From: Palleronia pontilimi
Lineage (GTDB): Bacteria > Pseudomonadota > Alphaproteobacteria > Rhodobacterales > Rhodobacteraceae
DNA length: 64,000 nucleotides
Assembly (NCBI RefSeq): GCF_016412875.1
Contig: NZ_JAEKPD010000002.1
Location: forward strand, 372,001 to 436,000
Direction of reading: 5' to 3'
Numbering within the stretch: position 1 is the first letter of the stretch; each line of letters starts with the position of its first letter. The notes under the pieces are model-generated. The model was not told the DNA's origin. It saw only the letters and a list, made by a program, of their open reading frames with translations, and did no database searches. Below, piece after piece: positions 14,426 to 38,089 of this stretch. Both the position numbers and the translations under genes were made by a program.

Positions 14426-14527
14426 ATGCAAATAAATCAACACGCTAGATTATCCTGTGCCCCTATGATGGATGGAACAGGTAGTTCGAATTTCCCGTTT
14501 TGTTCTGAAGGCTTTGCCAGGGCCTGA
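14426..14527 (+). pseudogene. dusA: Displaced 5' end of dusA (native N-terminus cut off by the island)
   Basis: A short frame reads MQINQHARLSCAPMMD and then leaves the DusA family, running into GTGSSNF and a stop at 14525. ARLS-APMMDWTDRHCR is the normal DusA N-terminus. The continuation WTDRHCRVFHR is found 22.7 kb away at 37148, directly after the same 15-bp sequence. This fragment is thus the left-hand leftover of dusA after insertion of a genomic island. Confidence 0.85.
14459..14473 (+). repeat. Left attachment repeat of the dusA island (attL core)
   Basis: GCCCCTATGATGGAT, identical to 37133-37147. It encodes APMMD of DusA. Just outside the core the two ends also share a near match (tcctgt versus tcttgc), as expected for a crossover within a longer att site. 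Confidence 0.85.
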
Positions 14528-14970
14528 TAGGGCATGTTGTAAAAAATGTTGTAACTTTCGGACGCCGGTTTGCCGGCCCGCTACTCTACTCAGACATGCG
14601 AGCGCTTTCGCCTCTGTATCCCTCGATCCTCCGGCCGCTGACCAAGGACGGTATAGCAGCCACTTTTTCTGGTGATCGGACCCCAGTGCGCCGCTTCTTC
14701 TGGGGCGGTTCTGCACGAGAAGGTACATCGGTTCCCTGAAGCCGTCGTTCGTTCAAACTGCGACGAATTCGTACTATGAGCCCAATTTGACCAATGCCGC
14801 AGATCGTGCGGGTGTCTGTATTGCGCGCCAAAGCCGACATATTCCAGCGAGCCAAAGTCTGTCCAATGGTTGGCGATTGGATTCAATAACAACGCCCAAG
14901 GACAAATTGATCAGTTGAGCAAGCTGCCTTGGATGCCCTGAGGGCGTGTTTCTGCAGGCGGCTCGGGTTT
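14528..14970. other. Left end of the island, no confident gene
   Basis: AT-richer sequence between the left attachment site and the first cargo gene. Two tandem TGTTGTAA motifs occur at 14535 and 14547. A minus-strand frame at 14590-14892 starts with residues reading DFGSLEYVGFG, faintly like some methyltransferase-type proteins, but the similarity fades quickly and neither neighbouring frame continues it. At best this is a decayed gene. I see no integrase here. Confidence 0.45.
14535..14554 (+). repeat. Tandem TGTTGTAA motifs near island left end
   Basis: TGTTGTAA occurs at 14535-14542 and again at 14547-14554, start points 12 bases apart, about 60 bases inside the left attachment core. The same octamer occurs at 36994-37001 near the right end. 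The placement suits integrase arm-binding or excisionase sites, but this is inferred from position only. Confidence 0.5.
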
Positions 14971-16476
14971 TCAGGCGGGCACTCTCTCGCGGCGCCAGCG
15001 CGCCGGGCCGATCTTGTGGATCGAGTTGCCTTGCGTGTCGACCGCGACCGTGACCGGCATGTCCTGGACGCGCAGCTTGTAGATCGCCTCCATCCCCAGG
15101 TCCTGAAAGGCCACCGGACGGGCTTCGCGGATCGCCTTGGACACCAGATAGGCGGCGCCGCCCACGGCGATCAGGTAGGCGGCCTGGTGCCGGGCGATGG
15201 CCTCGATGGCCTCGGGGCCGCGCTCGGCCTTGCCGATCATCAGTTTGAGCCCGGTTTCGGCCAGGATGCGGTCGGTGAACTTGTCCATGCGGGTCGAGGT
15301 GGTGGGTCCGGCGGGACCGATCACTTCGACACCCACGGCATCGACCGGCCCGACGTAATAGATCGCCCGGCCCCTCAGGTTGACGGGCAGAGGCTCGTCC
15401 TTGTCGAGCATCGCCGCCATGCGTTTGTGCGCCGCGTCGCGGCCGGTGTAGAGTGTTCCATTGAGTAGGATCGTTTCGCCCGGGGTCAGCGAGGCGATAA
15501 CTTCGTCGCTCAGGTTGTCGAGGTCGATGCGCCGCGACCCGGCTCCGGCCATGTCGAGCAGGATCTCGGGCCAGTCGGACAAATCGGGCGGATCGAGCTG
15601 GGCAGGGCCGGAACCGTCGAGCGCGAAATGGACGTGCCGGGTGGCGGCGCAGTTTGGGATCAGGCCGACGGGCAGGCTGGCGGCGTGGGTCGGGAAGCTA
15701 CGTATCTTCACATCGAGCACGGTGGTGACGCCGCCCAGGCCCTGCGCGCCGATGCCAAGCGCGTTGATCCGGTCGTGGATTTCCAGCCGCAGCTCTTCGG
15801 TACGGTCGTGCGGGCCGCGGCGGCGCAGGTCGGCCATGTCGATGGGGTCGTTCAAAGCCTTCTTGGCCAGGGCCATCGCCTTGTCCGCCGAGCCGCCGAC
15901 GCCTATGCCGAGGATACCGGGCGGGCACCAGCCGGCGCCCAGGCCCTCGACCGTTTTCACGACCCAGTCCGCAATCGAATCCGACGGGTTCAGCACCGCG
16001 AACTTCGCCTTGTTCTCGGACCCACCGCCCTTGGCCGAGACATGGACCTCGACGGTGTCGCCCTCGGCCAGCTCGACCGAGAGCATCGCCGGCGTGTTGT
16101 CGCCGGAGTTCTTGCGCGTGCCCAGCGGGTCCACAACGACCGACGCGCGCAGTGGGTTGCTGTCGAGCATGTAGGCCAGCCGCGTCGCCTCGTCGACGAC
16201 CTCCTGCAGCGGCCGCGACAGGTCGAGCCGCGCGCGGTGCCCGATCTTGATGAATACGTTGGCAGTCCCGGTGTCCTGGCAGATGGGGCGGCGGCCGAGC
16301 GCAGCCATGCGCGAGTTCACCAGGATCTGCGCCATCGCGTCCTTGGCCCCCCGGCTTTCCTCGCGCTCCCAGGCGGCGGCCATGGCTCGGATGAAATTGG
16401 GCGGGTGGTAGTACGAGACGAATTGAAGCGCATCCGCAATGCTGTCGATCAAGTCGGCTTCGCGGATCACGGTCAT
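14971..16476 (-). CDS. Class I (Fe-S) fumarate hydratase family protein, probable mesaconase
   Basis: Oxygen-sensitive [4Fe-4S] hydro-lyase of the FumA/FumB type, 501 residues, with alpha and beta domains fused. Three likely cluster ligands are visible: C66 (RPICQDTG), C184 (GAGWCPPG) and C276 (IPNCAATRH). The beta half contains GPTTSTRMDKF and AVGGAAYLV. The start at 16476 is 5 bases after the CitF-like gene stop. Class I enzymes of this group hydrate fumarate and, in several bacteria, mesaconate to (S)-citramalate. Being co-encoded with a CoA-transferase and a CitE-like lyase, rather than with Krebs-cycle genes, favours the mesaconase role. A plain fumarase or a methyl-substituted tartrate dehydratase cannot be excluded. 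Confidence 0.88.
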   Translation of the reverse strand: MTVIREADLIDSIADALQFVSYYHPPNFIRAMAAAWEREESRGAKDAMAQILVNSRMAALGRRPICQDTGTANVFIKIGHRARLDLSRPLQEVVDEATRLAYMLDSNPLRASVVVDPLGTRKNSGDNTPAMLSVELAEGDTVEVHVSAKGGGSENKAKFAVLNPSDSIADWVVKTVEGLGAGWCPPGILGIGVGGSADKAMALAKKALNDPIDMADLRRRGPHDRTEELRLEIHDRINALGIGAQGLGGVTTVLDVKIRSFPTHAASLPVGLIPNCAATRHVHFALDGSGPAQLDPPDLSDWPEILLDMAGAGSRRIDLDNLSDEVIASLTPGETILLNGTLYTGRDAAHKRMAAMLDKDEPLPVNLRGRAIYYVGPVDAVGVEVIGPAGPTTSTRMDKFTDRILAETGLKLMIGKAERGPEAIEAIARHQAAYLIAVGGAAYLVSKAIREARPVAFQDLGMEAIYKLRVQDMPVTVAVDTQGNSIHKIGPARWRRERVPA

Positions 16477-16481
16477 TGCCC

Positions 16482-17981
16482 TCACTCCTCGATCTGGCGC
16501 ACAACGTCGGTCACGCTGCCGTCGCGGTACTCCGAGACGGCGACCACCCGGCCGGTCGCCCGCGGCGGCGTCGGGCGCGTCGCGGTGGCCGCAGCCTGCG
16601 CCGCCAGCGCGTCGATTGCCACCACCGGCAGCCCGGCCCCGCGCAGCCGCTGAGCCAGATCGGCGCGCAGCGGGTTCACGGCGATGCCGGCATCGGTCAC
16701 CACAACGTCCACCGTCGCGCCGGGTGTCGTCAAGGTGCCGACGGCCGGAACTATCTTCGCGTAGCCCGCGGCGGTCAGCCGCGTCGTGACGATGGTCAGT
16801 CGGGCGCCGGCCGCTACGTCTGCATGCCCGCCCGAACCGCCAATGATCTCGCCGCCGGCCTTGGTGGTGACGTTGACGTTGAAGTCGAGATCGACCTCGG
16901 TCGCGCCCAGGATTACTGCGTCGACCCGATCGACCACCGCGCCGCCGACATGCGGACCGGCATAGATTGCGGCGGACATGGCCTGGTGGCGCGGGTCCGT
17001 CTGGTAGGATCGCACGGCCGCGAGGTCGAAGCACTGCACATCCATCAGCGTCCGGAACAGGCCCGCGTTGAGCATGTCGACGTGGAACCCGGTGATGCCG
17101 CCCGCGCAGAAGCTGCCGGTCACGCCTTTGGTCGCCATTTCCTGTCTCACGGCGGAGGCTGTGGCCAGCGAGACCCCGCCGGCGCCGGTCTGGAACGAGA
17201 AGCCTTCCCTCAGCAGACCGCTTGCCGAAATGGCGGCGGCGGCATGTTCGCCGATAGCCAGGCTCACCTTGTCTTCGGCCGGTTTCGTCGTGCCGGAGGC
17301 GATGCCGTTCGCGTCGCCGATCCGGTCAATCGCCACGACGAAATCGACCTTGCCCTGCGGGATGTCGATTGGCTGAGCCGGGAACGGAACCAGGCTGTCG
17401 GTCACGGCGACGACGTTGCGGGCAACCTCGACGTCGGCCATCGGGTATCCCAGCGTACCGCACGCAGTCCGGCCGGTGCGGCCAGAGATGTTGCCAAGCT
17501 CGTCTGCGGCCGGCGCGGCAACGAAGGCGGCATCCACCTTCAACTCGCCCTGATCCAGCACGCGGGCGCGGCCGCCATGAGTGCGCAGCACCACCGGCTC
17601 GGCAAGGGCGCCGCGGGCGACGGCCTCGCCCACGGGTCCGGAGATGAAGCTTGCGGAAATCCGGCCCACCGTTCCGTTTTCGATATGACCTACCAAGGGC
17701 GCATGCACCGGGAAGATCGAGGTGGCGGCCACGTGCAGGTTCTTCAGCCCGCGCCGCGCCAGCGCCTCCATCACCAGGTTCAGCACTTCGTCACCGTTAC
17801 GCAAATGGTGGTGAAACGAGACCGTCGCGCCGTCTTTCAGCTCGCAGGCGTCGATGGCGGCGCCCAGGTCGGGGAGCAGCTTGGACCGGCGGGCGACTTT
17901 GCCGGTCTGTGGCGCGGCGTCCGCCGCGCGGTACGCGCGGATCGTGCCGTAACCCTCGATTTTTGCGGGAAGATCGAGCAT
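16482..17981 (-). CDS. CitF-type CoA-transferase (citrate lyase alpha subunit family)
   Basis: 499 residues, full length for the citrate lyase alpha subunit, with the sequence FHHHLRNGDEVLN near the N-terminus, GGHADVAAGA and the C-terminal VVTDAGIAVNP. In citrate lyase this subunit swaps acetyl-ACP for citryl-ACP. No citD (acyl carrier), citG, citX or citC gene lies here, so it more probably acts on free CoA esters, for example succinyl-CoA or acetyl-CoA plus citramalate to citramalyl-CoA. It is flanked by the CitE-like and mesaconase-like genes on the same strand with gaps of 9 and 5 bases. The exact acceptor acid is inferred. Confidence 0.9.
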   Translation of the reverse strand: MLDLPAKIEGYGTIRAYRAADAAPQTGKVARRSKLLPDLGAAIDACELKDGATVSFHHHLRNGDEVLNLVMEALARRGLKNLHVAATSIFPVHAPLVGHIENGTVGRISASFISGPVGEAVARGALAEPVVLRTHGGRARVLDQGELKVDAAFVAAPAADELGNISGRTGRTACGTLGYPMADVEVARNVVAVTDSLVPFPAQPIDIPQGKVDFVVAIDRIGDANGIASGTTKPAEDKVSLAIGEHAAAAISASGLLREGFSFQTGAGGVSLATASAVRQEMATKGVTGSFCAGGITGFHVDMLNAGLFRTLMDVQCFDLAAVRSYQTDPRHQAMSAAIYAGPHVGGAVVDRVDAVILGATEVDLDFNVNVTTKAGGEIIGGSGGHADVAAGARLTIVTTRLTAAGYAKIVPAVGTLTTPGATVDVVVTDAGIAVNPLRADLAQRLRGAGLPVVAIDALAAQAAATATRPTPPRATGRVVAVSEYRDGSVTDVVRQIEE

Positions 17982-17990: not shown

Positions 17991-18794
17991 CTACAGGGTT
18001 TGCGCTTGGGAAAGTATGCGCCGGGCGGCATCTTCCACGGGTTTGTCGATCATGCGGCCGTCGAGCGCCACAGCGCCCTTTCCACCGGCCTCGAGCGTCT
18101 CGATCACGCGTCGTGCCCAGGCAAGCTGATCCGCATCAGGCGAAAAAGCCGCCCTGACCGGCCCAATCTGGTTCGGATGGATCAGCAGCTTGCCGCCGAA
18201 GCCGAGCGCACGTGCGGCCTCGGCCTCGCGCCGGGTCGTGTCTTTGTCGAGTTCCGGGGTGACGCTATCGACTGGCGCGGCCCGGCCCGCGACACGCGAC
18301 CGCCAGACGAGGTGCTGCCGCGCAAGGCTCAGACTGTCCCAATCCGTGGCAGAGCCCATGTCGAGCGCGAAATCGAGATGCCCGAATGCAACCCGGCGCA
18401 CGCCCGGCGCGGAAAGCAGGGCATCGACCCCGTCGAGACCTCGGGCGGTCTCGATCTGCGGCAGGATTTCGATGTCCCGGCCGATCCGCCTGCGCGCGTC
18501 GCCCAGATCCTCTGTCCGCTCTGCCTTCGGCACGATCACGGCCGCTGCGCCGGTCTTCGCCACCGCCTGCAGGTCGTCCGACCAGAAGGCCGAGCCGGCC
18601 GGGTTGACCCGCACCGCCACCCGGGTCCAGTCCAGGTCTGCCGCCACCAGCGCCTGACGCGCGGCTGGCTTGGCTTCGGGGCGCACCGCATCTTCCAGGT
18701 CGAGGATCGCCATGTCGGCGCCCGAACTCAGCGCCTTGGCGAAGCGGTCGGGCCGGTCGGCGGGCACGAAAAGATATGTGACGGGCAAGTCCAT
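17991..18794 (-). CDS. CitE-like lyase, probable citramalyl-CoA lyase
   Basis: TIM-barrel HpcH/HpaI-CitE family member, 267 residues. It starts TYLFVPADRPDRFAKAL, then ILDLEDAV (metal-binding acidic region), PKAE, PQIETARG and GHLDFALDMG, ending with IHPNQIGPV. These are standard for citryl/malyl/citramalyl-CoA lyases, which cleave the CoA ester to an oxo acid plus acetyl-CoA in a Mg-dependent way. The start at 18794 is where homology begins. Together with its two downstream neighbours it could complete mesaconate to citramalate to citramalyl-CoA to pyruvate plus acetyl-CoA. Confidence 0.9.
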   Translation of the reverse strand: MDLPVTYLFVPADRPDRFAKALSSGADMAILDLEDAVRPEAKPAARQALVAADLDWTRVAVRVNPAGSAFWSDDLQAVAKTGAAAVIVPKAERTEDLGDARRRIGRDIEILPQIETARGLDGVDALLSAPGVRRVAFGHLDFALDMGSATDWDSLSLARQHLVWRSRVAGRAAPVDSVTPELDKDTTRREAEAARALGFGGKLLIHPNQIGPVRAAFSPDADQLAWARRVIETLEAGGKGAVALDGRMIDKPVEDAARRILSQAQTL

Positions 18795-18798: not shown

Positions 18799-19548
18799 CT
18801 AGATCGTTCGCCCCCCGTCCACCTCCAGCACGACGCCGGTGATGAACTCGGCCTCGTCCGAGGCAAGGTAGAGGCAAGCCCCGGCCACGTCCTTCGGCTC
18901 GGCCAGGCGGCCCAGCGGCACGGTTGAGATGAATTTCGCGCGGTTCTCAGGGGTATCGGGCATTCCCATGAAGGACTCCAGAAGCCCCGTCGCCCCCATC
19001 ACCGGCGCGACGCAGTTGACGCGGATGCGATCGGGCGCCAGTTCCACCGCCATCGAGCGGCTCAGCAGATTCACCGCACCCTTGGTGGAGTTGTACCAGG
19101 TGAGGCCCGGTCGCGGGCGGATGCCGGCAGTAGAGCCGATGTTGATCATCACCCCTCCGCCCTGCGCCCGCATCACCGGCACCGCGGCGTTGGTCATGTG
19201 GTAGAGCGACTTGACGTTGATCGCGTAGACCCGGTCGAATTCCTCTTCGGTCACGTCGAGGATCGGCTTGTTGCGATGCGTCCAGCCGGCGTTGTTCACG
19301 ACGATGTCGAGACGGCCGCCGAACTCCTTCGCCGCATTCACCGCCTTCTCGATGTCGCCCGCGCGCGTCACGTCGCCGGTCACGGCGCGGGCGGCGTCGC
19401 CGACCTCCTTCGCCGTCGCCTCGGCGGCCTCGCCGTTCAGGTCGAGGATCACCACCTTCGCGCCTTCGCGGGCGAAACTGCGGACGATCTCGGCCCCGAA
19501 CCCCGCGCCGCCGCCGGTCACCAGGGCAGTCTTGCCTTTCAGACGCAT
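18799..19548 (-). CDS. SDR family oxidoreductase
   Basis: Classical SDR of 249 residues: TGGGAGFG (10-17) for the cofactor, NNAG, an IGSTAG serine, and YNSTK with the catalytic Tyr and Lys. The D after the second strand (VVILDLNG) favours NAD over NADP. The gene stands 4 bases before the CitE-like gene, so it belongs to the same operon. With the nearby glutathione transferase it may oxidise a hydroxylated, possibly glutathionylated, intermediate. The substrate cannot be read from sequence. Confidence 0.9.
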   Translation of the reverse strand: MRLKGKTALVTGGGAGFGAEIVRSFAREGAKVVILDLNGEAAEATAKEVGDAARAVTGDVTRAGDIEKAVNAAKEFGGRLDIVVNNAGWTHRNKPILDVTEEEFDRVYAINVKSLYHMTNAAVPVMRAQGGGVMINIGSTAGIRPRPGLTWYNSTKGAVNLLSRSMAVELAPDRIRVNCVAPVMGATGLLESFMGMPDTPENRAKFISTVPLGRLAEPKDVAGACLYLASDEAEFITGVVLEVDGGRTI

Positions 19549-19561
19549 CGCGATGTTCTCC

Positions 19562-19981
19562 TTACGAGGGCAATAGGCCGATCTGCTGCTGCAGACCGAT
19601 GTTGTCGATGGCCGGCCACTGCTCGGCAATTTTGCCGTTCTCCATGCGGAACAGGTCCAGCACCATCACGTCGAAGCGCTTGTTCGAGGCCGGGTAGTCG
19701 CCGAACGCGCCGGAATGCACGCCGCGGAACTGCAGCCGCACCAGCACCTTGTCGCCCTCGGCCACGGTGTCCTGGATGTCGAGGTCGATCTCCGAGAACG
19801 CGCCCAACAGCAGGTCGCCCAGCTGCAGAACGCCGTCGGGGCCCTTGACTTCGAACGGCAGGTTGGTGTCACGGCGCACGTAGCTTTTCGCCACGTTCTT
19901 CTCCAGCCAGTCGGCGTCCTTGGTGGCGAAGGCCTTGAAATAGTCCTTGGCGCGCTGGCGGTTGGCTTCGATGTCGGTCAT
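19562..19981 (-). CDS. SnoaL-like / NTF2-fold protein
   Basis: 139 residues with the SnoaL-like ester cyclase pattern: an N-terminal helix (RQRAKDYFKAFATKD), a beta-rich middle (DIQDTVAEGDKVLVRLQFRGVHSG) and the closing FRMENGKIAEQWPAIDNIGLQQQIG. Members include polyketide cyclases, isomerases and many small-molecule-binding proteins. Position between an SDR and a GST in the island operon suggests an isomerase or cyclase step in the same pathway. No signal peptide. Confidence 0.88.
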   Translation of the reverse strand: MTDIEANRQRAKDYFKAFATKDADWLEKNVAKSYVRRDTNLPFEVKGPDGVLQLGDLLLGAFSEIDLDIQDTVAEGDKVLVRLQFRGVHSGAFGDYPASNKRFDVMVLDLFRMENGKIAEQWPAIDNIGLQQQIGLLPS

Positions 19982-20006
19982 GGGCTTCTCCTTGATTTCG
20001 GGCGTT

Positions 20007-20954
20007 TCAGGCGGCGCTGCGGGCGGTGGCGGCGGCCGCCAGCACCTCGAAGCCCGCGCGCGGAAAGTGGACGTGGACGGTGCCGGTCTCGGCGCTGTCG
20101 CGGGCGATCACGATCTCCTGCGCATCCGCCGCGACCAGCCTGCCCTCGACCGCGACCCGCGCGTTGTCGTTGGGGGTCACGGTGACGCGCGCGCCCGGGT
20201 TCAGGCCGGTCGGGTCGGCGTCTGCGGCGAAGCTGTCGGCGGGTTCGGCGGCCCTGGCGGCGGCCAGCGCCTCTTCCGGCGTCATGTCGCTGAATTGCCC
20301 GTGACCGACGGCGGCGATCCGGCCCATCCAGGCGGTGACCGCCGGGCTGAGCCGAAGCTGCGCGTCGATGGCCTCGGCGCCGCAATTGGCGCGCAGCAGC
20401 CACAGGGAGTGATGGCAGGTCAGGTCCGCCGCGCTAAGCTTGCCGCCGGTCAGGTAGTCGCCGTTTTCCGCCAGCATCGAGTCGAGCCATTCGGCGAAGG
20501 CCGTCATCTGCTGCACGTAGGCCGGCAGCATCGGCGCCATCGCGTCCTTGGAGATGTCGTAGCCCAGGTAGCTTTCCTTGCGGTCCTTCAGAAAGGCCTC
20601 GGGCAGGTGCTCGCCGATATAGTCGACCAGGATGCCGATGGCGGGCTTCCAGGTGGCGCGGTCCCACCAGTGCGACAGCGCCTTGGCCACACCCTCGCCC
20701 GAGGGGTAGAGCGTCGGCGCGGGCTGCAGCCGCTCGAGCGCGCGAAAGATCACCTCGCTGTCGCAATAGACGTCGGCGCCGATCTGCAGCACCGGGACCC
20801 GGCGGTAGCCGCCGGTCAGCGCGTCGAGCATCGGGCGCGGCGGCACCGCGTCGACCTTGACGGACTTCCAGGGCAGGCCCTTGAAGCCTAGTGCCAGCCG
20901 GATCTTTTCGGAGAACGGCGACAGGTCGTAGTGGTGCAGGATGATCTCGGTCAT
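20007..20954 (-). CDS. Glutathione S-transferase family protein with C-terminal extension
   Basis: 315 residues, longer than usual bacterial GSTs (200-230). The thioredoxin-like N-domain starts HHYDLSPFSEKIRLALGFKG, with a serine as candidate glutathione-activating residue, and contains RRVPVLQIG and DSEVI. The helical C-domain extends to about residue 235. The last 70-80 residues (GLNPGARVTVTPNDNARVAVEGRL...) look like a separate beta domain. First gene of the minus-strand operon, divergent from LysR. Glutathione-dependent ether cleavage, epoxide opening or isomerisation are all possible; the SDR and ALDH partners fit a catabolic role. Confidence 0.88.
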   Translation of the reverse strand: MTEIILHHYDLSPFSEKIRLALGFKGLPWKSVKVDAVPPRPMLDALTGGYRRVPVLQIGADVYCDSEVIFRALERLQPAPTLYPSGEGVAKALSHWWDRATWKPAIGILVDYIGEHLPEAFLKDRKESYLGYDISKDAMAPMLPAYVQQMTAFAEWLDSMLAENGDYLTGGKLSAADLTCHHSLWLLRANCGAEAIDAQLRLSPAVTAWMGRIAAVGHGQFSDMTPEEALAAARAAEPADSFAADADPTGLNPGARVTVTPNDNARVAVEGRLVAADAQEIVIARDSAETGTVHVHFPRAGFEVLAAAATARSAA

Positions 20955-21169: not shown

Positions 21170-22120
21170 GTGGATATCCGCCAGCTTCGATATTTCGTCG
21201 CCATTGCCGAGGAGGGCTCGCTCTCGGCTGCTGCGCTGCGCGTGAACGTGGCGCAGCCCTCGCTCAGCCAACATGTCATCGCGCTGGAACGCGAGCTTGA
21301 CGTGACCCTGCTCGACCGCTCGCCGAGGGGCGTGTCGCTGACCCAGTCGGGCGAAGTGCTGCTGAGCCATGCGCGCGAGGTCATCGCCGCCCTTGACCAA
21401 GCCCGCGAGGCGGTGCGGCAATCGGGCAGCGAGCCGCTGGGCGAAGTGACCTTTGGCCTGCCAAGTTCCATCGCCATGGTGCTGTCGGTGCCGCTGGCCG
21501 AGACCGTGCGGTTGGAACTGCCCAAGGTCAGGCTGCGCGCCATCGACGCGATGAGCGGGTTCATCAAGGAATGGCTCGAGGATCAGTCGGTCGACCTCGG
21601 GATGCTTTACGACATCAGTGCGGTGCGGCACCTAAGCCATCGCCAGTTGATGACCGAGGAACTGCATTTCTTCTCGGCCCCCGACGCCTGGCCTTTTGAA
21701 ACGCGCGCCGGATCGCCGGTGCCGGTAACCGACCTGCCAAAGGCGGAGCTGGTGCTGCCCTCGCCACATCACGGGCTGCGTGTGATGATCGACCGCTCGA
21801 TCAAGCCGCACGGGGTAGTGCTGAACGTCGCCACCGAGATGGACGGGCTGGGCCAGATCAAGACCATGGTGGCGCGCGGCAGCGGCTACACCATCCTCGC
21901 GCCGGCCGCCGCCATCGACTATGTCGAACGCGGCGAACTGATCATGGCGCCGATCGTCGAGCCCGCGCTGGTGCGCCCGGTCTACCTGGTGCGCAACCCG
22001 GCCAAGCCGGTGACCCGGGCCAGTCAGGAGGTCGAGCGGATCACGTTGGAGGTGATCCGCGACCTCGTCGCGCGTGGCATCTGGCAGGCACTGGATCAGC
22101 CGGAGATCGCGGCCGGTTGA
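21170..22120 (+). CDS. LysR family transcriptional regulator
   Basis: 316 residues with GTG start, preceded by GGGAGG. The N-terminal winged helix-turn-helix reads MDIRQLRYFVAIAEEGSLSAAALRVNVAQPSLSQHVIALE, and the effector domain follows from about residue 90 (GEVTFGLPSSIAMVLSVPLAE), resembling the Nac/CynR-like branch. Transcribed away from the mesaconase-GST operon; by the usual LysR arrangement it probably activates that operon with a pathway intermediate as inducer. It is the only regulator seen in the island. Confidence 0.93.
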   Translation: MDIRQLRYFVAIAEEGSLSAAALRVNVAQPSLSQHVIALERELDVTLLDRSPRGVSLTQSGEVLLSHAREVIAALDQAREAVRQSGSEPLGEVTFGLPSSIAMVLSVPLAETVRLELPKVRLRAIDAMSGFIKEWLEDQSVDLGMLYDISAVRHLSHRQLMTEELHFFSAPDAWPFETRAGSPVPVTDLPKAELVLPSPHHGLRVMIDRSIKPHGVVLNVATEMDGLGQIKTMVARGSGYTILAPAAAIDYVERGELIMAPIVEPALVRPVYLVRNPAKPVTRASQEVERITLEVIRDLVARGIWQALDQPEIAAG

Positions 22121-25766: not shown

Positions 25767-25781
25767 CGGCCCGGCACGACC

Positions 25782-28190: not shown

Positions 28191-28205
28191 TGTTGTGACC
28201 TCCTG

Positions 28206-29096: not shown

Positions 29097-29166
29097 GGAT
29101 GGCTCGCCTTGGCTGTCCCGCGGCCATTCCCTGCGGAAGACCGGTTGCGGTTCGGGGTGTCAGGAA

Positions 29167-29194: not shown

Positions 29195-29203
29195 GGTCTC
29201 GGC

Positions 29204-30403: not shown

Positions 30404-30751
30404 GTGTTTTCTCCGTTGAGCTTTTCGGGACCGGTCCGGCGGAAGAAGCATCCTTCGGTGCCCAGCCCACGATCCGGCGCGTTGAAGATGCCGGAAAACG
30501 GTGCCGCTGGGGAAAGACGGAATTTCCATCCCAGCTATATGTTTTCTCTATATCGCCGCCAGGATCGGGCGACGAAAAGAACTAACACCGCGTACAGTTT
30601 GGAGAAAATTGGATTCCCGCCGACAGGCGTCACGCCGAGGATCTTGTGCTAGAAGGTCTTCCTATCGCCCATAGAGCCGCTTGGTATTTGTATCTTGTTC
30701 GGCTTTCGGTTCAGTTTGCGGCAAATCGAAACGCGGGATGGAGACAGGCAC
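30404..30751. promoter_or_regulatory. Divergent promoter region between transporter and SDR-ALDH operons
   Basis: A 348-bp gene-free region. It contains an AT-rich patch with CTATAT at 30535 and 30548 (13 bases apart) that could be a minus-strand promoter element for the binding-protein gene, and further AT-rich sequence at about 30575-30620. No regulator gene adjoins it. A LysR-type site could lie here, but no convincing dyad was found. Confidence 0.5.
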
Positions 30752-31549
30752 ATGGCTGACCGTCTGAAGGACAAGGTGGTATTCTTTTCGGGCGCGGGCT
30801 CGATCGGGCCTGGCTGGGGCAACGGCAAGGCCGCCGCCGTGGCAATGGCGCGCGAGGGCGCGAAGATCTTCGCGCTGGACGTCAACGGCGACGCCGTCGA
30901 GGAAACCGCGAAGGTGATCCGCGAGGAAGGCGGCGCGGTGGAAACCACCACCTGCGACGTCTCCAAGGCCGACCAGGTCGAAGCGGCGGTCAAGAAGTGC
31001 ATGGACGCCTTCGGCCGCATCGACGTGCTGGACAACAACGTCGGCATCATCGACCCGGGCGGCCCCGAGGAACTGAGCGAGGAACAGTGGGACCGGCTGA
31101 TGGCGATCAACGTCAAGTCGATCTACCTGACCTGCCGGCACATCCTGCCGATCATGACCAAGCAGGGCGGCGGCTCGATCATCAACATCTCGTCGATCGC
31201 CTCGACCCATTCGCTGGGCTATAGCTGCATCAGCTACTCCGCCTCGAAGGGCGCGGTGAACGCGTTCACCCGTGACATCGCGCTCAATTACGGGCCGAAG
31301 GGCGTGCGCTGCAACACGATCCTGCCGGGCCTGATGAACACGCCGCTGATCCACAGGGGCAACGTCACCTCCGTCTACGGCTCGACCGAGGCGATGGTGA
31401 AGGCGCGCGACGCGCTGGTGCCGCTGAGCAAGATGGGCGACGGCTGGGACGTGGCCTGGGCCAGCGTGTTCCTGGCCTCGGACGAAGCCAAGCACATCAC
31501 CGGCATCGAGCTGGTGGTCGATGGCGGCATCACGCTGAAGGTGAAATGA
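30752..31549 (+). CDS. SDR family oxidoreductase
   Basis: 265-residue classical SDR: FSGAGSIGPG near residues 12-21 replaces the usual TGxxxGxG with a longer glycine loop, the NAG motif is altered to DNNVG, and the catalytic region is NISSIAS...YSASKGA. ALDVNG after the second strand favours NAD. Similar variants act on aromatic or steroid alcohols. First gene of the plus-strand cargo operon; the stop overlaps the next start (ATGA). Confidence 0.9.
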   Translation: MADRLKDKVVFFSGAGSIGPGWGNGKAAAVAMAREGAKIFALDVNGDAVEETAKVIREEGGAVETTTCDVSKADQVEAAVKKCMDAFGRIDVLDNNVGIIDPGGPEELSEEQWDRLMAINVKSIYLTCRHILPIMTKQGGGSIINISSIASTHSLGYSCISYSASKGAVNAFTRDIALNYGPKGVRCNTILPGLMNTPLIHRGNVTSVYGSTEAMVKARDALVPLSKMGDGWDVAWASVFLASDEAKHITGIELVVDGGITLKVK

Positions 31550-32148
31550 CCATGAAGCTCTACGTCAACACCACCTCGCCCTTCGTCCGCCTGGTCCGTC
31601 TGGCCATCGAGGAAAAGGGCCTTTCCGACCGCGTCGAGCTGGAGATCGTCGACCCCTGGGCCGACCCCAAGGCGTTCCTCGCGGCCAACCCGGCGGGCCG
31701 GGTGCCCACGCTGATCACTGACGAGGGCCACGCCATCGCCGAGGCGCAGCTGATCCTGCGCTATCTCGACCAGATCGCGCAGCCTTCGGTGTTTCCCGCC
31801 GACGATCTTGCCGAGACGCTGGCCATCGCAGCCCCCGCCATCGGCGCGACCGAGGCCTCGACCGCGATTATCATTGGCCGCAAGTCCTTGCCGAACTTCG
31901 ACACCGACATGGTCGGCTCGAAGCGGTTCCGCAGCATCGCCGAAGGGCTCAAGCGTCTGGACGGCAACCTGCCGCGCGACTTCGCCGACCGCCCGGACAT
32001 CGCCAACTTCGCCGCGGTGACGCTGCTCGACTACGTCCTGTTCCGCTTCACCGACCGTGACTGGCTGAAGGACCTGCCCGCCTTGCGCGACTGGCGCGAG
32101 CGGCAGAAAGGCCATCCTTCCGTCGAAGCGACCATGCCCTACATCTGA
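31546..32148 (+). CDS. Glutathione S-transferase family protein
   Basis: 200 residues. The N-domain begins MKLYVNTTSPFVRLVRLAIEEKGL, with Ser in the SPF motif as likely catalytic residue, followed by NPAGRVPTL and EAQLILRYLD, standard for bacterial GSTs. The C-domain is helical. ATGs at 31546 and 31552 are both possible starts; the first overlaps the SDR stop. Pairing of an SDR and a GST resembles the beta-aryl-ether (Lig) and isoprene (Iso) glutathione pathways, but key partner genes of those (monooxygenase, several Lig enzymes) are missing. Confidence 0.9.
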   Translation: MTMKLYVNTTSPFVRLVRLAIEEKGLSDRVELEIVDPWADPKAFLAANPAGRVPTLITDEGHAIAEAQLILRYLDQIAQPSVFPADDLAETLAIAAPAIGATEASTAIIIGRKSLPNFDTDMVGSKRFRSIAEGLKRLDGNLPRDFADRPDIANFAAVTLLDYVLFRFTDRDWLKDLPALRDWRERQKGHPSVEATMPYI

Positions 32149-32176
32149 TCCGCGACCCGACCTTCCGGAGGCACCC

Positions 32177-33628
32177 ATGTCCCACCAAGCAACCCTGTCC
32201 CGCACCGATCTGAAGGCACTCGATCACTGGATCGACGGCGCCTCGGCCAAACCCGCGGGCGGCAAGTACCTCGAAACCGCCAACCCGATGACCGGCCAGC
32301 CGCATATGCGCGTGGCCGCTGGCAGCGCCGAGGATGTCGAGAGCGCCGTCAAGGCTGCGGTCGAGGCCCGCGACGGCTGGCGCCGCTATGTCGCCGCCGA
32401 GCGTGGCCGCCTGATGCTGCGGCTCGCCCAGGCGATCCGCGACAACAAGGACAAGCTGGCCGAGATGGAGCGCACCGATTCGGGCAAGCCGATGGCGGGC
32501 GCCCTGGCCGAGATCGAAGGCAGCGCGCATTATTTCGAGTTCTACGGCAGCCTCGTCTACCTGCCCCAGGGTGATGTCATCGACGTCGCCCCCGACCAGC
32601 ACGTCTTCACTAAGCGCGAGCCCTACGGCGTGATCGGCGTCATCACGCCGTGGAACCTACCGCTGAACCAGGCCGCGCGCGCCATCGCTCCCGCGCTGGT
32701 CGCCGGCAACGTGGTGGTGGCAAAACCGTCCGAGATCACCTCGCAGACCACCATCGAAATGGCGCGGCTGGCCAGCGAAGTCGGCTTTCCCAAGGGCGTC
32801 ATCAACATCGTGCTGGGCACCGGGATCGACGTGGGCGAGGCCATCGTGCGCCATGACGAGGTGCGCAAGGTGGCCTTCACCGGCTCGGTCGGGGTTGGAC
32901 GCGCCATCGGCAAGATTGCCGCCGAGCGCATTATCCCGCTGACGCTGGAGCTGGGCGGAAAATCCGCCAACATCGTCTTCGAGGACGCAGATCTCGACGT
33001 CGCCGCCGCCGAGGCCGTCAAGGGCTTCACCCTGAACGCCGGCCAGGTCTGCTCGGCCGGCACGCGCATCCTGGTGCAACGCTCGATCTACGAGGAATTC
33101 ACGCAGAAACTCGCCGCCGAGACCGCCAAGATCAAGCCGGGCGAGAACCTCGGCCCGATCATCACGCCGGCGCAGTTCCAGCGCGTGCAGAGCTATTTCA
33201 AGGTGGCCGAAGAAGACGGCGCGCGGGTACTCGCGGGCGGCAAGGTGGCAAAGGTGAAGGGCCAGGAAGAGGGCTTCTACGTCGAACCCACCGTCTATGC
33301 CGATGTCGACAACGCCATGCGCATCGCCCAAGAGGAAGTCTTTGGACCGGTCGGCGTCGCGATCCCCTTCGACACCGAGGAGGACGCAATCCGCATCGCC
33401 AACGACAGCGACTACGGCCTGATCGGCACGCTCTGGTCGCGCGACATTTCCCGCGCGCTGCGGGTCGCTGACCGGATCGAGGCGGGGCAGATCTTCGTCA
33501 ATATCTGGAACACGATGTCGGTCCAGACGCCCTTCGGTGGCCACAAGAATTCCGGCTACGGGCGCGAGAAGGGGATCGAGGCGATCCACCACTACTCGCA
33601 CCTCAAGACCGTAACGGTTAAAATCTGA
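32177..33628 (+). CDS. NAD(P)-dependent aldehyde dehydrogenase
   Basis: 483 residues, full ALDH superfamily length. PWNLPLNQAARAIAPALVAGN, cofactor motif FTGSVGVG, catalytic E258 (LELGGKS) and C292 (GQVCSAG) are all present, and it ends with the PFGGHKNSGYGREKG motif. Oxidises an aldehyde to an acid. It sits 28 bases after the GST gene. The second ALDH of the operon is distinctly different, so the two probably act on different aldehydes. Confidence 0.93.
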   Translation: MSHQATLSRTDLKALDHWIDGASAKPAGGKYLETANPMTGQPHMRVAAGSAEDVESAVKAAVEARDGWRRYVAAERGRLMLRLAQAIRDNKDKLAEMERTDSGKPMAGALAEIEGSAHYFEFYGSLVYLPQGDVIDVAPDQHVFTKREPYGVIGVITPWNLPLNQAARAIAPALVAGNVVVAKPSEITSQTTIEMARLASEVGFPKGVINIVLGTGIDVGEAIVRHDEVRKVAFTGSVGVGRAIGKIAAERIIPLTLELGGKSANIVFEDADLDVAAAEAVKGFTLNAGQVCSAGTRILVQRSIYEEFTQKLAAETAKIKPGENLGPIITPAQFQRVQSYFKVAEEDGARVLAGGKVAKVKGQEEGFYVEPTVYADVDNAMRIAQEEVFGPVGVAIPFDTEEDAIRIANDSDYGLIGTLWSRDISRALRVADRIEAGQIFVNIWNTMSVQTPFGGHKNSGYGREKGIEAIHHYSHLKTVTVKI

Positions 33629-33685
33629 CGCAATCGAATTGGCCGGACCCGCATGGGGGCCAGCCGCCGGATGAGGAGACCGTGC

Positions 33686-34660
33686 ATGGCCTACGCAATC
33701 TTTGCCCCCGAACCCGGCGGCGCAAATGTTCTTCAGCGGCGCGACATCGAGCCGCCGACGCCCAAGTCGGGCGAGGTCCTGATCCGGCACACGGCCATCG
33801 GGGTGAACTATCTCGACATCTATTTCCGCACCGGGACCTATCCCTGGCCGGTCGAGCGGGACCTGATCCTGGGCTCGGAAGGCGCGGGCGTGGTCGAGGC
33901 GGTTGGCGAGGGCGTGGGCGGCTTCGCCAAGGGTAACCGCGTCGCCTATACCGTGGCCAATGGCGCCTATGCCTCGCACCGGATCGTCCCGGCGGCGATG
34001 CTGGTCCACCTGCCGGACGCCGTGACCGACGCGCAGGCGGCGGGCGCAATGCTGAAAGGGCTGACCGTCCACTACCTGATCCACCATTCCTATGCGGTGC
34101 AGTCTGGCGACACCGTGCTGGTCCATGCCGCCGCGGGCGGTGTCGGCCAGATCGCGGGGCAATGGCTGAAGGCCAGGGGGGTACGCGCCATCGGCACCGC
34201 AGGCGGGGCCGACAAATGCGCCCGCGCCAGGCAGAACGGCTATGCCGAGGTGATCGATTACAGCCAGGGCGACTGGGTGGAGGCGGTGAAATCCCTCACC
34301 GACGGCGCCGGCGTGGCCGCGGTCTATGACGGGGTCGGGCGCGATACGATCCTGGGCTCGGCGCAATGCTTGCGCCGCTTCGGCACGCTCGTCAGCTTTG
34401 GCCAGGCCTCGGGCGCGCCGGACCAGTTCCGCATCGCGCATCTGGCGCCGAATTCGCTGCGCCTGACCCGGCCGACGCTGTTCCACCACACCGCCTCGCG
34501 CGACTGGTACGCCAGCGCAGCCGCCGACCTCTTCGCCGCCATCGCCGACGGCAGCATCGTGATCGAGACCGGCACGCCGCAGCCGCTGGAGGAGGTGGCC
34601 GAAGTGCACCGATCGCTCGAATCGCGCAAGACCACCGGCTCGGTGATCCTTACGCCCTAG
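33686..34660 (+). CDS. Quinone oxidoreductase (zeta-crystallin-like, QorA family)
   Basis: 324 residues, zinc-free medium-chain reductase: GVNYLDIYFRTGTYPWP, LGSEGAGVVEAVG, and the NADPH-binding AAAGGVGQIAGQWLKA. The start at 33686 follows GAGGAGA. Such enzymes reduce quinones or alkenals with NADPH and may protect against reactive products, or reduce an enone in the pathway. Confidence 0.93.
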   Translation: MAYAIFAPEPGGANVLQRRDIEPPTPKSGEVLIRHTAIGVNYLDIYFRTGTYPWPVERDLILGSEGAGVVEAVGEGVGGFAKGNRVAYTVANGAYASHRIVPAAMLVHLPDAVTDAQAAGAMLKGLTVHYLIHHSYAVQSGDTVLVHAAAGGVGQIAGQWLKARGVRAIGTAGGADKCARARQNGYAEVIDYSQGDWVEAVKSLTDGAGVAAVYDGVGRDTILGSAQCLRRFGTLVSFGQASGAPDQFRIAHLAPNSLRLTRPTLFHHTASRDWYASAAADLFAAIADGSIVIETGTPQPLEEVAEVHRSLESRKTTGSVILTP

Positions 34661-34690
34661 GCTGGACCCTCGGACCCAGGGAGAGCAGGC

Positions 34691-36166
34691 ATGAACCTTG
34701 AAAGCGTTCCTCCGATCGCTGCCGCATCCGTCCCCTGCGGGGTCTTCGTCGACAATGCCTGGCGGCCCGCTGCTTCGGGCAAAACACTCGAGATGGTCGA
34801 GCCGGCGACCGGCGCTCCGTTCGCGCGCATCGCCGCCGGAGACGCGCGCGACGTCGACGCCGCGGTTCGCGCCGCGCGCCGCGCGCTGGAGGGCAGCTGG
34901 GGGCGGCTCGACGCCACAGAGCGAGGCCGCCTGCTGACCCGGCTGGGCGCGCTGATCGAAAACCAACGCGACACGCTCGCCGTGCTTGAGGCACGCGACA
35001 CTGGCAAGCCCCTGAGCCAGGCGCGAACCGACATCGACGCCGCCGCGCGGTACTTCGAGTTCTACGGCGGCGCCGCCGACAAGGTCCTTGGCGCGACCAT
35101 CCCCTATAGGCCCGGCAAGCTCGCCCTGACCGAGCGCGTGCCGCATGGCGTCACCGGGCACATCATCCCCTGGAACTACCCCGCCCAGATGTTTGGCCGC
35201 ACGCTGGCGCCAGCGCTGGCCATGGGCAATGCCTGCGTATTGAAACCCGCCGAGGATGCCTGTCTGACCGTGTTGCACCTGGCTGAACTATCGCGCGAGG
35301 CCGGCTTTCCGCCCGGCGCGATAAACGTCGTGCCGGGACGCGGTGAGGTCGCCGGCGCGGCGTTGTCTGCGCATTCCGGCGTCGACTTCCTGTCCTTCAC
35401 CGGCAGCCCCGAGGTTGGCACTCTGGTGCAGATCGCCGCCGCCCGTCGGCACGCGGGCTGCACGCTGGAGCTGGGCGGTAAGTCGCCGCAGATCGTCTTT
35501 GGCGATGCCGACCTCGACGCCGCGGTTCCGGTGATCATCGCCGCCATCGCGCAGAACGCCGGGCAGACTTGCTCGGCCGGATCGCGAGTCCTGGCCGAGG
35601 AAGGCATCGCCAAGGACCTTTCCGCGCGCCTCGCCGACGCCTTTGCCGCCCTGCGCGCCGGCCCGCCCGAGGCCGATCTCGATCTCGGCCCGGTCATCAA
35701 CCCCACTCAGAAGCGTCGGGTCGAGCGGTTCTGCGGTCTCGCCGATGCAGCCGGGGTGCCGCTGATCGCCGAGGGCCGCATCGACCCCGGCGCCGTACCG
35801 CACGGCTGTTACGTCACGCCCCGCCTCTATGGCCCGGTACCGCGCGACCATCCGGTGGCGCAGCAGGAAATTTTCGGGCCCGTCCTGGCGCTGACGATCT
35901 TCGGGGATGAGGACGACGCCGTTTGCCTCGCCAACGGCACCGAGTACGGGCTGGTCGCGGGCGTCTGGTCGCGCGATGCTGCCCGCGCGGTCCGGGTGGC
36001 CCGCCGCATAGGCGCCGGCCAGGTTCACATCAACGGCTACGCCGCAGGCGGCGAGGTCGAGCTGCCTTTCGGCGGCATCAGGAAATCCGGTCATGGTCGC
36101 GAGAAGGGCCTTGCCGCGCTCGACGAGTTTTCAACAACCCTTACCCTGGTCCTCAACCACGCCTGA
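34691..36166 (+). CDS. Aldehyde dehydrogenase family protein (betaine/hydroxybenzaldehyde-type)
   Basis: 491 residues with IIPWNYPAQMFGRTLAPALAMGN, FTGSPEVG, catalytic E260 (LELGGKS) and C294 (GQTCSAG), and PFGGIRKSGHGREKG near the end. Slightly more GC-rich and arginine-rich than the first ALDH. Substrate not readable. Confidence 0.92.
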   Translation: MNLESVPPIAAASVPCGVFVDNAWRPAASGKTLEMVEPATGAPFARIAAGDARDVDAAVRAARRALEGSWGRLDATERGRLLTRLGALIENQRDTLAVLEARDTGKPLSQARTDIDAAARYFEFYGGAADKVLGATIPYRPGKLALTERVPHGVTGHIIPWNYPAQMFGRTLAPALAMGNACVLKPAEDACLTVLHLAELSREAGFPPGAINVVPGRGEVAGAALSAHSGVDFLSFTGSPEVGTLVQIAAARRHAGCTLELGGKSPQIVFGDADLDAAVPVIIAAIAQNAGQTCSAGSRVLAEEGIAKDLSARLADAFAALRAGPPEADLDLGPVINPTQKRRVERFCGLADAAGVPLIAEGRIDPGAVPHGCYVTPRLYGPVPRDHPVAQQEIFGPVLALTIFGDEDDAVCLANGTEYGLVAGVWSRDAARAVRVARRIGAGQVHINGYAAGGEVELPFGGIRKSGHGREKGLAALDEFSTTLTLVLNHA

Positions 36167-36182
36167 AACCGGAAGCACCGCC

Positions 36183-36713
36183 ATGACACCGCAAACCGTC
36201 CCTGACGCCACCTTTCACACCCGCGTGCGCAACCCCGCCCTGGGCGGCGACAATCCGTTCGAATGGAAAGACGTCACCACCGCCGACGTCTTCTCGGGCA
36301 AACGGATCGTCGCCTTCGCTCTGCCCGGCGCCTTCACCCCGGCCTGCTCGGACAGCCACCTGCCGGGATACGAGCGGCTGCACGATGACTTTCTCGCGGC
36401 GGGCGTCGACCGTGTCGTCTGCCTGTCGGTCAACGACGCCTTCGTGATGTTTCAGTGGGCCCGCTCGCGGAACATCGAGAAGGTTCACATGCTGCCCGAC
36501 GGCAATGGCGAGTTCACTCGCAAGATGGGCATGCTTGTCGACCGCTCGGCGCAGGGCATGGGTATGCGCAGCTGGCGCTATTCAATGCTGGTCGAGGACC
36601 TCGAGATCGTGAAGCTGTTCGCCGAGCCCGGCTTCCGTGACAACCCGCCAGGCGTTCCGCTTGAACATTCCGGGGCCGAGACGATGCTGGAATTTGTAAG
36701 GCCCCGAAGCTGA
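36183..36713 (+). CDS. Peroxiredoxin (Prx5 type)
   Basis: 176 residues. The peroxidatic cysteine is C55 in PGAFTPACSDSHLPGY, with a second cysteine at position 80 (RVVCLSVND) as possible resolving residue; C-terminal FAEPGFRDNPPGVPLEHSGAETML is typical of Prx5. No glutaredoxin domain is fused, so glutathione and an external glutaredoxin would reduce it. As the last cargo gene, it probably removes peroxide generated in the pathway. Confidence 0.93.
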   Translation: MTPQTVPDATFHTRVRNPALGGDNPFEWKDVTTADVFSGKRIVAFALPGAFTPACSDSHLPGYERLHDDFLAAGVDRVVCLSVNDAFVMFQWARSRNIEKVHMLPDGNGEFTRKMGMLVDRSAQGMGMRSWRYSMLVEDLEIVKLFAEPGFRDNPPGVPLEHSGAETMLEFVRPRS

Positions 36714-37087
36714 TCCTGATGGTTTTGCGGTGCAGCAACCCTGGAACCGATAGGGCGGGGTGACCCGTCCGAATTTTTTGACCTTCGGTGCACTGGCGGG
36801 AGAACGTCTGCAAGAAAGAGAAAGCGGACCTCTGCCTCACGACCTTTAATGGCAGCTTCGTCCGCATTCTGCCAGTTCACGCGCGGCGCAGCGAATGGCG
36901 GCAAACTTGCTCGCACGGATTGGAACCTATCACCCAAAGACGAACGGAGAGGGGTAGGGCCGAGCTACAACATCGCGATTTAGGCGCAACATTTGTTGTA
37001 ACTTGATCGAAAACGGGCTCGGACGAGCAATAAACGGGCCTGAAACATGCTCTGGCGGGACTGCCCAAGCTGCGATAAACGTCAGCA
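36714..37087. other. Right end of the island, no confident gene
   Basis: 374 bp between the peroxiredoxin gene and the dusA start, AT-richer than the cargo. It contains CAACATTTGTTG (perfect inverted repeat) and a TGTTGTAA motif at about 36987-37001. A plus-strand stretch near 36889-36980 translates as protein-like (ARTDWNLSPKDERRG) but is short and unassignable. No integrase or excisionase gene visible. Confidence 0.45.
36987..37001. repeat. Palindrome with TGTTGTAA motif near island right end
   Basis: CAACATTTGTTG (36987-36998) is a perfect inverted repeat with TT centre, running into TGTTGTAA (36994-37001), the octamer found twice near the left end. Candidate integrase or excisionase binding site. 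Confidence 0.5.
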
Positions 37088-38089
37088 ATGAAAAGAAAAT
37101 CGCACAATATCGTACCTTGGCGTATGTCTTGCGCCCCTATGATGGATTGGACGGACCGGCATTGCCGGGTGTTTCATCGGGCGATGTCGTCGAAGGCGTT
37201 GCTTTACACGGAAATGGTGACGGCGCCCGCATTGGTGCGGGGCAGGGCGCGGCATCTGCTGGACTTCGATGGGGCCGAACATCCCGTCGCGCTGCAACTG
37301 GGGGGATCGGATCCGCAGGAATTGGCCCAGGCTGCGCGGATGGGGGCCGATCACGGGTACGACGAGATCAACCTGAACGTGGGCTGCCCGTCGGACCGGG
37401 TGCAGTCGGGATGTTTCGGCGCGGTCCTGATGGAACAACCCGCGTTGGTGGCCGACTGCTGTGCCGCGATGATCGGCGCTCAGCCAAAACCGGTCACAGT
37501 CAAGTGCCGGATCGGCGTGGACGATCAGGAACCCGCGGCGGTACTGCCCGATTTCCTTGCGCAAATTCGCGATGCCGGGGTGCGTCGCGTCGCGATCCAC
37601 GCACGCAAGGCATGGCTTCAGGGGCTCAGCCCGAAAGAGAACCGCGATATCCCGCCGCTCGATTATCCGCTGGTCCACGCGATGAAAGCCGAATTCCCCG
37701 ACCTGCACCTGTCGATCAATGGCGGGATCACCGATCTCGATCAGGTGGAAGCGCATCTGCGCGCTGGCCTCGACGGCGTCATGGTCGGACGCGCGGCCTA
37801 TCACGATCCTGCGGCGATCCTGCTCGACGCAGATCGGCGCATATTCGGTCAGGATCGCGCACCCTTGTCGCGGGCCGAGGTCGTGGAAGCGATGCTGCCC
37901 TATATCGACCGGCACATTGCCGCAGGCGGCAAGCTGGGGCAGGTCACCCGGCATATGCTGGGTCTGTTCGCCGGGCAACCGGGTGCCCGGGCATGGCGGC
38001 GGATCCTGTCCGAAGGCGCGCACCGGCCCGGGGCGGGTCGCGGCCTGCTGCTCGATGCGCTGGACGCGACCCAGGCCGCCGCTGCGTGA
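37088..38089 (+). CDS. dusA: tRNA-dihydrouridine(20/20a) synthase DusA, with N-terminus supplied by the island
   Basis: Flavin enzyme that reduces U20/U20a in tRNA D-loops, 333 residues. CAPMMDWTDRHCR begins the TIM barrel; the catalytic cysteine is C100 (NVGCPSDRVQSG), followed by VKCRIGVDD and INGGITDL and FMN-contacting GVMVGRAAY. The first 13 residues (MKRKSHNIVPWRM) come from island DNA and differ from the native start left at 14426. An in-frame ATG at 37124 (MSCAPMMD) is an alternative start. The stop overlaps a GTG start of the next gene. The protein looks complete and functional. Confidence 0.95.
   Translation: MKRKSHNIVPWRMSCAPMMDWTDRHCRVFHRAMSSKALLYTEMVTAPALVRGRARHLLDFDGAEHPVALQLGGSDPQELAQAARMGADHGYDEINLNVGCPSDRVQSGCFGAVLMEQPALVADCCAAMIGAQPKPVTVKCRIGVDDQEPAAVLPDFLAQIRDAGVRRVAIHARKAWLQGLSPKENRDIPPLDYPLVHAMKAEFPDLHLSINGGITDLDQVEAHLRAGLDGVMVGRAAYHDPAAILLDADRRIFGQDRAPLSRAEVVEAMLPYIDRHIAAGGKLGQVTRHMLGLFAGQPGARAWRRILSEGAHRPGAGRGLLLDALDATQAAAA
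37133..37147 (+). repeat. Right attachment repeat of the dusA island (attR core)
   Basis: GCCCCTATGATGGAT, identical to 14459-14473, within the coding sequence for APMMD of DusA. The right-hand copy is joined to the rest of dusA. Confidence 0.85.

Follow-up and report, generated by a model that had tools for sequence, protein, structure and literature searches.

A probable integrase-less dusA island beside a decayed integrase-bearing element in Palleronia pontilimi

We analysed a 64,000-nucleotide stretch of the Palleronia pontilimi genome (contig NZ_JAEKPD010000002.1, positions 372,001 to 436,000 of the forward strand), referred to below as the window, in which the 5' end of dusA carries an insertion. 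The inserted segment of 22,674 bp is probably a dusA island without an integrase of its own, resembling a cis-mobilizable element (CIME), which, judging from sequence comparison, entered the dusA site beside an integrase-bearing element that is now decayed. A wider reading, possible but short of probable, is that Rhodobacteraceae carry a family of non-autonomous dusA cargo units. Such units would consist of two end modules of ~300 bp with putative integrase-binding arms, between which gene clusters would be swapped at defined inner boundaries, and they would be moved by the integrases of other dusA elements, i.e. they would form a cassette system for blocks of 6–23 kb.

The limits of the unit are given by a 15-bp repeat, GCCCCTATGATGGAT, which is present in two exact copies on the plus strand, the left and the right core (Table 1). 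When up to two mismatches were allowed, the window held 2 matches compared to 0.14 expected, and genome-wide four further matches at two mismatches were obtained versus two for the reversed control. The degenerate family pattern GCNCCNATGATGGAY occurred exactly twice in the 3.72-Mb assembly (64 contigs, 98.98% complete), namely at the two cores, while its reversed control gave 0. The original prediction of an insertion into dusA bounded by two 15-bp copies therefore holds. Since the pattern scan found no third core in the assembly, the genuine native left junction has been lost, has diverged or is missing from the assembly; we looked for it on contig C12 from 260001 and across the whole assembly without finding it. 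A conserved native gene upstream of dusA was sought in relatives to place the left limit, and the upstream genes were found to vary widely.

At the right junction the core runs, as had been predicted, into a true DusA body. The encoded protein is full-length DusA by its matches to the NCBIfam equivalog (487.7 bits at a cut-off of 269) and to Pfam Dus, and the DusA proteins of most relatives align to it from about residue 11–12. The unit supplies the 5' end of the gene, and the same 5' end joins a different dusA body in Paracoccus maritimus (P. maritimus below). The window, P. maritimus, G207, G287, L211 and L248 share a supplied start of the form M(E/K)..S(Q/H)NIVPWRMS(C/I)APMMD, of which G314 and G142 have variants. 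In 36714–37147 we recognised no sigma-70-like promoter.

Relatives without the unit allowed the locus to be reconstructed. When the flanks were joined (13659–14473 and 37148–38089), they aligned in one piece across the join to G001 (1668 bp, 77.6%), G003 (1736 bp, 72.3%) and G035 (1743 bp, 71.0%), all of which lack the unit at dusA, such that the contiguous unit-free locus anticipated by the original prediction was indeed found. For G007, which has another integrase before dusA, and for G034 the alignment covered the dusA side or little beyond. Among the 14 genomes of the genus the end modules occur only in the window's own: neither was found in the 13 congeners, where as many as 39 and 34 candidate places were scored in each genome. 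The fumarase segment of the cargo matched at length in five of these 13, on contigs other than the dusA contig, and an arrangement with the cargo beside dusA in all relatives and no empty site was not seen.

The left junction turned out to be of a different kind than proposed. The left copy had been described as a native dusA start reading MQINQHARLSCAPMMD and then GTGSSN; the reading is as described, but its assignment to native dusA is not borne out. The DNA at 13659–14476 aligns with the DNA directly before dusA at 72.5% in the congener G003 and at 73.9% over 821 bp in G035, which belongs to another genus, and 13677–14473 aligns with the congener G001 at 82%. In the relatives this DNA encodes a tyrosine-type integrase on the minus strand. 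The start codon and residues preceding the left core look native when read alone. In the window the corresponding integrase, of family A, is broken: its matches are spread over three frames with a stop, and ~364 bp within it (13294–13657) are non-integrase sequence. The missing segment, 248–359 of the G035 integrase, includes MRLDE at 252 and HDLRHEG at 345, which we take to be the catalytic Arg and HxxR segments. This is the only dusA-type integrase found in the window, and it lies outside the unit, to the left of the left core. The left core is thus the dusA-proximal end, with a replacement start codon, of another decayed dusA element. Given that the left flank is the end of an integrase-bearing element, the locus is a tandem of the remains of the integrase-A element, the 22.7-kb unit and dusA. 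Such integrase-bearing dusA elements are common among the relatives; a dusA-type integrase match was present within 1.8 kb upstream in 12 of 28 oriented dusA loci.

These results bear on the picture originally drawn, a single conventional genomic island in a native dusA start. It would account for the two core copies, the intact DusA on the right and the continuous joined locus, and a native-looking start of the same style (MNIDQHARLSV) does precede a 40.6-kb integrase-bearing element in G007. It is nevertheless contradicted by the left-flank alignments and the integrase tblastn searches, since the DNA directly left of the left core is the end of an integrase-bearing element, kept even in another genus (G035), and since the unit has no integrase inside. 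We regard it as extremely improbable: location and limits of the island had been recognised correctly, while the tandem with a decayed element and the lack of an integrase had been missed.

Further remains of the upstream element lie to the left of the broken integrase. A fragment (Table 1) is 67.6% identical to a G003 protein adjoining the dusA integrase of that genome and 70% to a gene of contig G000:C26; DNA homology of the upstream element to relatives ends at 12489. Neither Pfam nor NCBIfam matched the fragment, and the full-length C26 homologue had no Pfam match. On the small contig itself (G000:C26:1-3371) an open integrase frame adjoins an end that was judged by eye to be tRNA-like. 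We rejected this integrase as part of the same element, as it matches the dusA integrases at 21–27% only.

Between the cores 23 genes were called. Pfam scans of all 23 revealed no integrase, relaxase or transposase, contig C12 has no PF00589 match, and tblastn with dusA integrase frames found no integrase between the cores. One integrase query, a frame from G003 that also extends across dusA in antisense, matched the dusA strand at 37097–37474; this is not an integrase. Having neither its own integrase nor mobilization or conjugation genes among the called genes, the unit is by gene content not an integrative and mobilizable element (IME) or an integrative and conjugative element (ICE).

The same ends enclose other cargo elsewhere. 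In P. maritimus the order is that of the window: broken integrase A, core (6527 in L314), left module, cargo, right module, core (12312) and dusA. Between the two species the left modules are identical at 318 of 325 positions (97.8%) and the right modules at 266 of 270 (98.5%, from 36863), compared to 181 of 198 (91.4%) in the 200 bases left of the core and 624 of 945 (66%) for core and dusA. The 5.8-kb cargo of P. maritimus encodes a LysR regulator, a GNAT protein, two ChaC-like proteins and an M19 dipeptidase (Pfam), and shares nothing with the window genes except a weak LysR match. Homology between the two ends at 14783 and resumes at 36863. In G257, which has an iron-type ABC cargo (FecCD), the left module is 79.6% identical and homology stops at 14781; in L248, with an amidohydrolase and a GntR/UTRA regulator, the cargo joins the right module at 36857 (88.7%), the unit and the integrase-A remnant being in reversed order there. 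As far as ends of BLAST alignments define them, the left inner boundary at 14781–14783 is thus common to the window, P. maritimus and G257, and the right one at 36857–36863 to the window, P. maritimus and L248, around unrelated cargos.

Complete units between two cores were found at six loci: the window (22.7 kb), P. maritimus (5.8 kb), G314 (8.4 kb, radical SAM genes), G142 (6.0 kb, a MACPF protein), G178 (6.4 kb, peptide ABC genes) and G020 (about 17.3 kb, TIR proteins). Neither tblastn with seven dusA integrase frames nor Pfam on every called gene detected an integrase within any of the six, and whole-genome PF00589 searches for the window genome, G314, G142, G020 and P. maritimus likewise placed none there. 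For G207 and G287 no left core and no integrase match were found in about 74 kb upstream, and both were left out of the count. In G314 (L158, reverse complement) three cores stand in a row, at 4720, 13126 and 14687, bounding two units; the second, of 1.56 kb, contains a glyoxalase-type and a GNAT gene, with no further core or dusA in the next 44 kb. The G020 unit (L162, 1322–18658) is of the dusA type; with successive genes for TIR-domain, SLOG, patatin and WD40 proteins, its cargo resembles a defence island.

One alternative is decay in place. Each unit would once have been an autonomous dusA island that later lost its integrase by deletion, i.e. a plain CIME, and the shared ends would reflect one island family with ordinary variable cargo. 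The literature documents well how CIMEs arise by decay and how elements accrete in tandem (PMC5704250), dusA islands as a rule carry variable cargo (PMC4482086), and the adjacent family-A integrase is broken in both the window and P. maritimus. On the other hand, the ends persist although six of six complete units have no detected integrase. Ends that are ~98% identical between the integrase-less units of two species point to recent movement without an integrase. Moreover, the inner boundaries are common to unrelated cargos, and it is less parsimonious to assume a separate loss at the same position in every case. Taken together we consider decay in place unlikely.

A further explanation, less probable still, is homologous recombination alone, by natural transformation or gene transfer agents, for which Rhodobacterales are known. 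The repeats would then be passive, and end modules and flanks would serve as homology arms for replacing the interior. Identity just outside the left core falls to 91% and not to zero, so that the flank does offer homology. However, identity shifts at the cores themselves, from 91.4% to 97.8% on the left and from 98.5% to 66% on the right, and units follow family-A, family-B and native-looking dusA starts, as site-specific insertion predicts.

The distribution of the end modules (about 325 bp on the left, about 290 bp on the right) was searched in 394 genomes of the family, about one per genus, scoring two candidate places per genome, such that the counts are lower bounds. Left-end DNA was matched in at least 18 of the 394: beyond the core in five besides the window's own (G257, G314, G020, G142, G178), in ten over core and dusA start only, and in G221 and G307 over only 25–28 bases at the inner edge. 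Right-end DNA was matched in at least 26 of the 394. Four genomes besides the own (G314, G207, G287, G142) match next to the core, G385 over 37 bases elsewhere in the module, and 20 only in a ~50-bp dispersed repeat, within which the inner edge of the right module falls. This repeat (near GGCAGCTTCGTCCGCATTCTGCCAGTTCRCGCGCGGCGCAGCGAATGGCGGC; 36840–36905, L133–L157) is dispersed at unrelated places in about 20 Rhodobacteraceae genomes. No match to the end modules was obtained in plasmids, nor to the left module in phages. A pattern scan of a collection of 84,980 species returned 84 loci, dominated by betaproteobacterial titles; six carry Rhodobacteraceae titles: L195 (P. maritimus), L196, L211 and L248 (both metagenome-assembled genomes), L221 and L231. 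In viral contigs the left pattern was found 0 times and the right pattern in 3 stretches, whose DusA starts look like Comamonadaceae ones. In Comamonas, Acidovorax and Giesbergeria (L189, L205, L214, L256, L259) the core follows a DusA-type start and is itself followed by non-dusA sequence. These five loci are apparently dusA insertions in Comamonadaceae as well, and their starts, PWRMS(V/I)APMMD, resemble the start supplied by the right module.

The most likely mechanism behind the island in the window involves the following steps. A dusA-type tyrosine integrase acting in trans would recognise the cores and the GTTGTAA arms and insert or remove the unit; group-B integrases, or some of them, would be the candidates. 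The right module would give dusA a new start codon, such that the gene stays intact. Behind the fixed ends the interior would be exchanged, perhaps via homologous recombination at short dispersed repeats on the inner edges of the ends. The clusters found between such modules are catabolic, for peptide uptake, TIR-type defence-like and MACPF. Counted from the core, GTTGTAA or its complement TTACAAC is found at comparable positions in 6 of 7 left modules (as a pair at about 63 and 75 in 5) and in 6 of 8 right modules, with 0.01–0.03 expected in shuffles each; the ends are mutually related, and these counts are not independent trials. Four copies each are present at the integrase-B ends of G033 and G009, compared to none at 8 integrase-A and -C ends.

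Several points weigh against this explanation of the unit. The evidence for mobility is all comparative, and since similarity to the window unit's ends served to find the other units, the sample is biased towards its kind. GTTGTAA was chosen as the arm once the ends had been inspected, and one left module (G178), two right modules (G207, G142) and two integrase-B ends (G257, G020) lack it in exact form. The suggestion of cargo exchange by homologous recombination has the position of the dispersed repeat at the right inner edge as its sole basis. Within the set of six, the whole-genome PF00589 search covers the five other than G178, whose right end is of another type, and the diverged cores of G020 were placed by eye. 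In G257 and G020 an integrase B lies directly left of the left module, and the right end of G257 is unassembled; autonomous elements with the same left module and an integrase at the right may therefore exist. Finally, the source genome has no close relative of integrase B: of its 8 PF00589 loci, 4 give local matches of 21–38% to dusA integrases and 4 none. The unit may for this reason be stranded at present.

The coordinates of the features are collected in Table 1. Within the cargo the CitE-like protein fits acyl-CoA lyases best; its best NCBIfam match, RipC, reached 150.7 bits and lies below the cut-off of 375. The block from fumarase to GST and the LysR, YtkA-like and ABC genes recur in the same order in G407 at 43–80% identity. 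G393 shows the same order at the same identities as far as its contig stretch matched, with no fumarase match there, and parts of the cluster recur in G328 and G033. No dusA was found near the cluster within the stretches fetched from these four genomes. We therefore rejected the cargo as key to mobility; it is apparently a captured, pre-existing, conserved catabolic cluster. Mesaconase (a class I fumarase), citramalate CoA-transferase and citramalyl-CoA lyase make up the mesaconate route (PMC4682846). The fumarase, CitF and CitE types of the unit would, as a guess and the least certain of our assignments, be compatible with a pathway that degrades mesaconate or citramalate to acetyl-CoA and pyruvate. 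Metabolic cargo at dusA is already described for the arginine succinyltransferase and rut pathways (PMC4482086). For this particular cargo a literature search for dusA with citrate lyase found no paper among those listed, which concern unrelated subjects, judged by title. Outside the unit, a second catabolic block at 3647–9836 comprises genes for an ADH, an SDR, an acyl-CoA dehydrogenase, an APH-type kinase, a DUF6285 protein and an acyl-CoA ligase; to their left lies a branched-chain-type ABC set.

Table 1. Features of the dusA locus in window coordinates.
Feature	Position	Strand	Basis or remarks
Fragment, 189 residues of a ~398-residue protein, unknown family	12491–13060	-	Relic of the upstream element
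Broken dusA-type tyrosine integrase (family A) of the upstream element	13153–14312	-	tblastn with G035 and G003 integrases; start coordinate derived from alignment
Replacement dusA start MQINQHARLSC from the upstream element	14426–14458	+	Matching layout before dusA in G001, G003, G035
Left core (attachment-site repeat)	14459–14473	+	Joins upstream element to unit
Left end module, paired GTTGTAA arms 63 and 75 bases past the core	14459–14783	+	Homologues in P. maritimus, G257, G314, G142, G020, G178
Class I fumarase-type Fe-S hydratase (fumarase or mesaconase)	14971–16476	-	Pfam Fumerase and Fumerase_C, NCBIfam
CitF-type CoA-transferase (citrate/citramalate lyase alpha)	16482–17981	-	TIGR01584, 525.3 bits (cut-off 501.45); PDB 2hj0, 1xr4
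CitE/HpcH-type acyl-CoA lyase	17991–18794	-	Pfam; PDB 8khl, 9nzb
SDR oxidoreductase, SnoaL-like protein, GST-like protein	18799–20954	-	Pfam, NCBIfam
LysR regulator	21170–22120	+	Pfam
YtkA-like protein, two branched-chain-type ABC transporter gene sets, substrate-binding protein	22123–30529	-	Pfam
SDR, GST, aldehyde dehydrogenase, zinc-type reductase, second aldehyde dehydrogenase, redoxin	30695–36713	+	Pfam, NCBIfam
Right end module, GCAACATTTGTTGTAAC arm and replacement dusA start	36857–37147	+	Homologues in P. maritimus, L248, G314, G207, G287, G142
dusA, first 15 codons (MKRKSHNIVPWRMSC) from the unit	37088–38089	+	Pfam Dus, NCBIfam DusA
Right core	37133–37147	+	Repeat match, pattern scan

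An island that lacks an integrase is readily taken for a mere remnant, and surveys based on integrases cannot see such islands. Here both ends are ~98% identical in two species while the cargo is wholly different, which indicates recent mobility of the ends and an interior that can be exchanged. If the proposed mechanism in trans were true, dusA would be a place where large metabolic or defence blocks swap like cassettes, and the two end modules provide a simple key to search for them. In the literature we found no description of integrase-less units that, as a set, combine fixed end modules and shared inner boundaries with interchangeable cargo, and no paper joining dusA, Rhodobacteraceae and genomic islands.

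With the known dusA-specific islands (PMC4482086) the unit shares the target at the dusA 5' end, the direct repeats, the island-supplied dusA 5' end and a diverse, also metabolic, cargo. Farrugia et al. 2015 (PMC4482086) describe the integrase gene as the only feature that all 94 dusA islands share; in contrast, the window unit has no dusA-associated integrase, and it has the end modules but not the interior in common with its relatives. Tandem insertion at dusA is also found for Vibrio elements (PMC8409611), which, unlike the window unit, carry integrases; the IME VchUSA3 has in addition rdfN and is mobilised by IncC plasmids. While the Vibrio element supplies promoter and N-terminus (PMC8409611), the window unit supplies a start codon, with no sigma-70-like promoter recognised. 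The microcin H47 island of E. coli (PMC3191183, PMC5426353) likewise has direct repeats at its ends and no recombinase of its own, and it is mobile, its mobility being called parasitic. Its repeats and cargo are different, and conserved ends with exchanged cargo are not mentioned in the abstracts of these papers. As a CIME does (PMC5704250), the unit keeps left and right attachment sites (attL and attR), has no integration or transfer genes and stands in tandem with an element at the same site. CIMEs are mobilised in cis by the adjacent element, and the adjacent integrase is broken here. By anatomy the window unit works like a CIME at a dusA site, both known kinds. Unlike CIMEs, which are described as decayed ICEs or IMEs (PMC5704250), its fixed ends recur around unrelated cargos in several genera, and this exchange behind the ends would be the feature that it adds.

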